Assembly (NCBI GenBank): GCA_031279415.1
Contig: JAITIP010000028.1
Coordinates: 1 to 48,210 of the forward strand
From: Candidatus Endomicrobium procryptotermitis
GTDB taxonomy: Bacteria; Elusimicrobiota; Endomicrobiia; Endomicrobiales; Endomicrobiaceae
DNA: 48,210 nucleotides
Direction of reading: 5' to 3'
The stretch's first letter is position 1; every line of letters starts with the position of its first letter. Made by a program: the position numbers and the translations under genes. This document shows, piece after piece, positions 13,933-15,077 of this stretch. Below the pieces are notes generated by a model. That model was not told the origin of the DNA. It was given only the letters and a program-made list of their open reading frames with translations, and ran no database searches.

Positions 13933-14547
13933 ATGCAATATAAAAAATTTAGAATCGGAGATTTATTTTATAAACCTGATTTAAAATTTATCGGTGAATA
14001 TCCGTTTAAATATATAAAACGCGGCAATTTATCTAAAATTAGAAATAAAGAGTTTGATTTACCTCTTGTTAATGCAAAGCATGGCGATAACGGCATTATG
14101 TATTATGGCCGCTTGTCAGACTTTGAATATGTAGAAAACAGCATTGCCATTATTGCCGACGGTGCCGTTTCCACGGGCGATGTATATCCCCAAATTCATA
14201 AAACAGGAGTTTTGTATAATGCGTATTTAATCAAGCCTTTTACAGATTTAAAAAGGGAAGCGTTAATTTATTTATCTGTAGTTATTAAAAAATCTGTTAA
14301 ATTAAAATTTAGCTATGAAAATAAGGCGACTTGGAATAAAATTAAAACTGAACAAATTGAACTTCCAGTAATGTCTGAAGGCAGTCCAGACTACGACTAT
14401 ATGACCGCTCGCATTCGCGAGCTTGAAGCCGCTCGCATTCGCGAGCTTGAAGCCTATTTAAAAGTTACAGGATTAAGAGATTATATACTTACGGAAAAAG
14501 AGAAAAAGATTTTAGTTGATTATCGTCGGGGGGGGGGGGGGGGGTAA
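13933..14547 (+). CDS. specificity (S) subunit, first target-recognition domain, ending at a 17-G tract
   Basis: A 204-residue S-type protein for the fused enzyme upstream. Residues 1-155 form one target-recognition domain (KKFRIGDLFYKPDL, LPLVNAKHGDNG, IELPVMSEGSPDYDYM). The conserved linker follows: ARIRELEA twice in tandem, then YLKVTGLRDYILTEKEK. The frame then enters an uninterrupted run of 17 G (14528-14544), reads Gly codons and stops at TAA immediately after. A second recognition domain continues in another frame. With 18 or 15 G the two would join into an S protein of about 380 residues; with 17 G a half-S is made. In EcoR124-type and NgoAV-type systems half-S proteins can pair and give symmetric target sites, so the short form may still work. 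Confidence 0.85.
   Translation: MQYKKFRIGDLFYKPDLKFIGEYPFKYIKRGNLSKIRNKEFDLPLVNAKHGDNGIMYYGRLSDFEYVENSIAIIADGAVSTGDVYPQIHKTGVLYNAYLIKPFTDLKREALIYLSVVIKKSVKLKFSYENKATWNKIKTEQIELPVMSEGSPDYDYMTARIRELEAARIRELEAYLKVTGLRDYILTEKEKKILVDYRRGGGGG
14407..14454 (+). repeat. 24-bp perfect tandem duplication in the S-subunit linker
   Basis: Two identical 24-base units (14407-14430 and 14431-14454), each encoding ARIRELEA. Each unit contains an internal inverted repeat, GCTCGC-attc-GCGAGC. Being a multiple of three, a change in copy number keeps the reading frame but lengthens or shortens the helical spacer between recognition domains. Confidence 0.95.
14528..14544 (+). repeat. 17-G homopolymer tract (candidate phase-variation switch)
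   Basis: Seventeen consecutive G within a low-GC genome, located exactly at the junction between two halves of the S gene. Slippage changes the reading frame: 17 G gives an immediate stop, while 18 or 15 G fuses both halves. The length is as given in the assembly and may vary between reads or cells. Confidence 0.95.
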
Positions 14548-15077
14548 ATTTTAAACCCTTCCGTATAGGTGATTTATTTTACATTGGCCGAGGTAATATC
14601 CAAAATCAGAATCAACTAGTACCCGATAAAAATGGTATTTCTTTTATTGCTCAAAACGATAACTCAAACGGTCATGTTAAGAAAGTCAAACAAGAATTCA
14701 ATAAAGTATTCCCTAAAAACAGCATTGTCATTGGCAGACAAACTGCGGTTATTTATTTTCAACCGGAGAATTTTATAACTACTGATGGTGTTTTAGTATT
14801 AATGGAAAAAAAACAAAATATAAAAAATTCTGAAATGGGGTTATATATAACTGTCTCTATAAAAAAACAGCTTGAATCATTTAGTTATTCAAATACAGTT
14901 TCGTCGGCAAAACTTAATTCTATTGAAATATTGCTGCCTTGCACTTCAGAAGGCAGTCCAGACTTTGAATATATGACCCAATTCATAAAAATTCAACAGA
15001 AACTTGCGATAAAAAGTGTGATTGAATGGAAAGACAAACAAATTGGAATTACAAAACAAATAACGACAGATTTTTAA
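14548..15077 (+). pseudogene. out-of-frame second target-recognition domain of the S subunit
   Basis: About 176 codons readable from the G tract in the frame that differs from 13933-14547. It begins NFKPFRIGDLFYIGRGN, a clear duplicate of the first domain's start, and runs to EILLPCTSEGSPDFEYM and a C-terminal helix ending ITKQITTDF. There is no start codon or ribosome site near its beginning; the first in-frame ATG (14802) lies inside the domain. It carries no internal stop, so the coding frame has been maintained, as expected for a phase-off segment rather than a decaying pseudogene. Confidence 0.8.

Follow-up and report, generated by a model that had tools for sequence, protein, structure and literature searches.

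Exactly between the two target-recognition domains of a BcgI-like specificity (S) gene of Candidatus Endomicrobium procryptotermitis lies a tract of 17 consecutive G (Table 1). Gene structure, homology and precedent make it likely that this tract is a specificity switch, in which tract lengths of the 3n class yield a full two-domain S protein and other lengths a half-S protein. The order of the genes and the logic of the reading frames fit such a switch, the catalytic motifs of the associated enzyme are intact and homologues from several phyla have a G tract in the corresponding position. Tract length varied between these homologues and we infer that it also varies within the population from which the assembly was made. 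The window referred to throughout is the whole stretch of DNA that was analysed (48,210 nt).

Table 1. Coordinates in the window of the elements of the BcgI-like locus.
Feature	Position	Strand	Basis or remark
RM gene, fused nuclease and N6-adenine methyltransferase, 680 aa	11848..13890	+	Pfam, PADLOC, motifs
S1 half-S gene, 204 aa, one target-recognition domain and connector helix	13933..14547	+	17 G as assembled
Perfect 24-bp x 2.1 tandem repeat, codes RIRELEAA-RIRELEAY	14405..14454	+	In connector helix of S1
17-G tract	14528..14544	+	Proposed slipped-strand switch
S2, second target-recognition domain, 177 codons	14544..15077	+	Pfam Methylase_S 5.1e-15
Stop cassette TAAATTTTAAAC	14545..14556	+	Ends both non-fusing frames within 0 and 3 codons

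The RM gene encodes nuclease and N6-adenine methyltransferase in a single chain. Its product matched Pfam N6_Mtase (5e-30) and, over residues 14-675, PADLOC REase_MTase_IIG (1e-210), and it carries a PD...ExK-like nuclease motif (GVPDF at residue 65, IIENK at 84) together with methylase motif I (DLATGSAGFL at 395) and motif IV (NPPF at 489). The separate S gene, which starts at 13933, follows directly downstream and has recognition domains like those of type I systems, both halves matching Methylase_S or Specificity_II models (S1 against PADLOC Specificity_II, 7.9e-15). These matches and motifs bear out the first-pass annotation, which had proposed a BcgI-like system whose nuclease and methylase share one S protein. 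The separate HsdM and HsdR of an NgoAV-like type I restriction-modification system are not what is found here, as the methylase chain is a fusion with the nuclease. BcgI, a type IIB enzyme compared by families and names only, has in common with the locus the RM fusion and the two-domain S. We know of no poly-G switch in BcgI itself.

The tract is the only run of at least 7 G in the window; the longest run in windows simulated with a first-order Markov model was 11, with a mean of 6.8 over 200 trials. As assembled, the open reading frame at 13933-14547 gives a protein with the C-terminus RRGGGGG. The effect of tract length on the frame was recounted over 12-22 G. Tracts of 12, 15, 18 or 21 G fuse S1 and S2 into a protein of 379-382 aa, those of 14, 17 or 20 G are followed by an immediate stop and those of 13, 16, 19 or 22 G lead to a stop after GKF. 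Read from the last G, the S2 frame ran through 177 codons without a stop, whereas stops numbered 14 in one of the remaining frames and 16 in the other. What had been claimed at first pass was correct in every respect, namely 17 G between domains beginning KKFRIGDLFYK and KPFRIGDLFYI, a one-domain S at 17 G, fusion at 15 or 18 G and a second domain free of stops. The tract may not be exactly 17 G long, since errors are common in homopolymers and a poly-G contig end occurs elsewhere in the assembly. Over its more than 100 bases, that contig end (G000:C24:22666-22799) is almost purely G, interrupted only rarely by T or C, and is probably a sequencing artefact.

S1 was 50% identical over 196 aa to a second-position half-S of Helicobacter and 42% identical to a second-position domain from a Spirochaetia genome. 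This resemblance to second-position domains elsewhere indicates that recognition domains have moved too. S2 shared 48% identity over 175 aa with a domain in second position from a Neisseriaceae genome and had no match among PDB chains. A start scan placed the earliest in-frame ATG, GTG or TTG of S2 at 14802. S2 therefore lacks a usable start codon and is probably made only via fusion. In the structure model of S1, which has a mean pLDDT of 52 and is usable in the connector helices only, a long helix (residues 154-179) covers the tandem repeat. The number of connector-repeat units varies among homologues and the 24-bp repeat is a possible second length-variable element.

In the proposed mechanism, replication slippage would alter the number of G in the tract. 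Lengths of the 3n class (12, 15, 18, 21) would give the two-domain S and hence methylation and cleavage at an asymmetric bipartite site, while at other lengths, including the assembled 17, the half-S S1 would be made alone and pair with itself on the RM subunits. Paired S1 would recognize a bipartite palindrome in which each side is the first half-site, and a changed number of 24-bp repeats would alter the spacer. Since half-S S1 would direct RM to a palindromic site, the switch would act on specificity and not as an on/off control. The likely benefit would be a population mixed in its anti-phage restriction specificity and methylation pattern.

The first-pass annotation had known of no such case in a fused nuclease-methylase system. 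This was incorrect, as such cases have been described in Helicobacter pylori. In HpyUM032XIII (H. pylori UM032, K747_03825, S1/S2) a tract of 12 G splits S1 from S2; S1 alone is active on the palindromic CYAN7TRG, the fused S is active on CYAN7TTC and S2 is inactive without S1 (Lee et al. 2015, PMC4450513). The locus described here shares with it the fused RM gene, the poly-G between two recognition domains and a half-S followed by a downstream remainder, with one frame that fuses the domains and others that stop. It differs in having 17 G and a host outside Helicobacter, and the motifs are established for HpyUM032XIII. The RM protein is homologous to those of Helicobacter systems with tract-bearing S genes, at 55-57% identity. 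Krebes et al. (2013, PMC3936762) reported tracts of 13/14 G in HP1471 and JHP1364, both BcgI-like S genes. In HpyH1III, described as homologous, CYAN6TRG methylation was gained or lost in step with the tract in isolates from human volunteers (PMC7448279). Since what was published is the appearance or disappearance of a single motif, the fused form may on occasion be inactive. HpyH1III, HP1471/HP1472 and JHP1364/JHP1365 resemble the present system in being BcgI-like or homologous with a phase-variable G tract, and differ in belonging to H. pylori; the JHP1364/JHP1365 system (Hpy99XXII) was reported to be inactive as it occurs in its strain. In the HsdS of NgoAV (PMC6789123), truncation at a poly-G also changes specificity and LEAT repeat number acts as well, comparable to the 24-bp repeat here; NgoAV is however type I with separate M and R subunits and no fused RM.

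Tracts at the homologous junction were found in six Helicobacter orthologues (RM 55-57% identical), where they comprised 13, 8, 9, 13, 9 and 8 G, in frame in some and out of frame in others. The homologue from Clostridiales (RM ~70% identical) had an in-frame tract of 9 G, and out-of-frame tracts of 11 and 10 G were seen in homologues from Helicobacteraceae and Neisseriaceae, respectively. In Helicobacter canis (L121:3971-8200) a single frame of 1410 aa encodes RM and three recognition domains, the third of which is preceded by 13 G in frame. The junction tract was absent from Treponema, Paenibacillus and one Neisseriaceae homologue. Eight Helicobacter S loci lacked a tract of at least 8 G, and at least two of these (L159, L164) have unsplit S genes, which indicates that the tract is dispensable for function. 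TAA or TAG stands directly 3' of most of the 18 tracts listed. Such a stop hints at selection, which is suggestive only, many of the tracts being related by descent; G_n-TAA alone was rejected as proof of selection, as TAA also follows two other tracts of the same genome, both on C2. Other arrangements were also observed in the Helicobacter family. In L194 (G116) and L201 (G115) four recognition-domain frames stand in a row downstream of the RM gene, in cassette-like arrays with tracts of 12-16 G between the frames or at their starts. In L163, L170 and L200, AG/GA repeats coding for RERERERE lie near the inter-domain junction, replacing or alongside poly-G.

Homologues of RM were searched for with the single RM protein as query. 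The closest was a Clostridiales Family XIII protein (~70% identical), followed by proteins from other Clostridia, Treponema and Paenibacillus (60-64%), Helicobacter (52-57%) and staphylococcal phages (~30%, one annotated bcgIA). The best matches among the 59 other members of its own family were ~30-40% identical and partial or distant. In the RM tree the window protein grouped with two Clostridia proteins (support 100/99); its pairing with L112 alone was weaker (82/68). Because of this grouping, horizontal transfer is the simplest reading of how the RM locus was acquired. No other BcgI-like S gene with a tract of at least 8 G was found in the stretches fetched from 100 relatives.

The genome contains a further BcgI-like system (L022:4255-7202; G000:C37:63254-66201), which has 14 G between its two recognition domains. 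This tract is out of frame as assembled, and 13 or 16 G would fuse the domains. The C37 RM is 27-29% identical to the window RM, and its tree branch is long and its placement unsure. The two switches probably arose separately, as the fetched relatives of the C37 RM had no tract. A third system (C4) has an unsplit S of 327 aa and no tract. A search of the genome for silent recognition-domain cassettes returned these three systems alone, with no such cassette. Poly-G was also observed in genes of other kinds. In the gene of a D12-class adenine methyltransferase (L193:2181-2189; G000:C20), a tract of 9 G within the FLGGGG motif leaves the frame broken as assembled, with MethyltransfD12 matches in both pieces, and this gene is likely a phase-variable orphan methylase. 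A 10-G tract (G000:C36:60751-60760) just upstream of a FeoA gene possibly reflects promoter-type phase variation of iron uptake. Assignment of a C1 tract to an AbiEii-like gene was dropped, there being no Pfam confirmation. Within the Endomicrobiaceae, tracts of at least 11 G were common in several genomes, numbering 17 in G026, where most of those examined were intergenic or near short frames, 43 in G009 and 23 in G025, while certain other genomes had none. In G014 a SpoVG gene is interrupted by an 11-G tract (L192:771-781) that puts it out of frame, and each of its pieces matched SpoVG.

An on/off switch, in which activity would depend on the fused S and the half-S would have none, is the usual mode of most phase-variable methylase genes. 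It is also in line with Hpy99XXII (JHP1364/JHP1365), for which activity was shown only with a frame-corrected S, although the start site was altered too (PMC3936762). We nevertheless consider it unlikely here, given that S1 alone suffices for activity in HpyUM032XIII, the closest analogue to have been tested (PMC4450513), and that S1 of the window retains a full recognition domain along with its connector helix and terminates cleanly at the tract. Less probable still is a gene locked out of frame, with S1 as the working subunit and S2 as a relic. The assembled length is indeed out of frame, as is that of the C37 system, but the S2 frame has no stop over its 177 codons and its product is 48% identical to a domain from another phylum, orthologous tracts vary in length and a tract of 17 G would be expected to slip frequently.

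Slippage during transcription or translation would provide both forms from one DNA sequence with no change in the DNA. Although possible on long homopolymers, it is best known on A/T runs, and the change in HpyH1III tracks the status of the DNA tract as confirmed by Sanger sequencing (PMC7448279), leaving this about as improbable as the locked gene. The least probable explanation is an assembly artefact hiding one open frame without a tract. The C24 contig of the same assembly does end in artefact-like poly-G, but the tract at the S gene is internal with both halves joined in the expected order, homologues from several phyla likewise have a tract between the two domains and the family member G014 also has tracts of at least 11 G. 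A poly-G specificity switch that alternates between half-S and full S is consequently the reading we prefer.

It may be, though we hold this tentatively and at somewhat less than even chance, that junction poly-G in BcgI-like S genes arose more than once and was selected for providing a clean half-S along with a full S. One Endomicrobiaceae lineage would then hold two unrelated switches (17 G and 14 G) and a 24-bp spacer repeat, and with these several methylation and restriction states. New in the present genome are the C37 system, whose tract of 14 G occupies the same junction, and the perfect 24-bp x2 connector repeat. With two unrelated systems in one genome sharing the junction tract, and with the stop so frequently direct, selection for half-S becomes testable.

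A literature search returned no paper on phase variation in Endomicrobiaceae, and in the literature found the switch has been demonstrated only in Helicobacter. The poly-G specificity switch already proven in H. pylori very probably extends to Elusimicrobiota. The locus indicates that the switch travels horizontally together with its enzyme, and it places such a switch in a family that includes endosymbionts of termite-gut protists.
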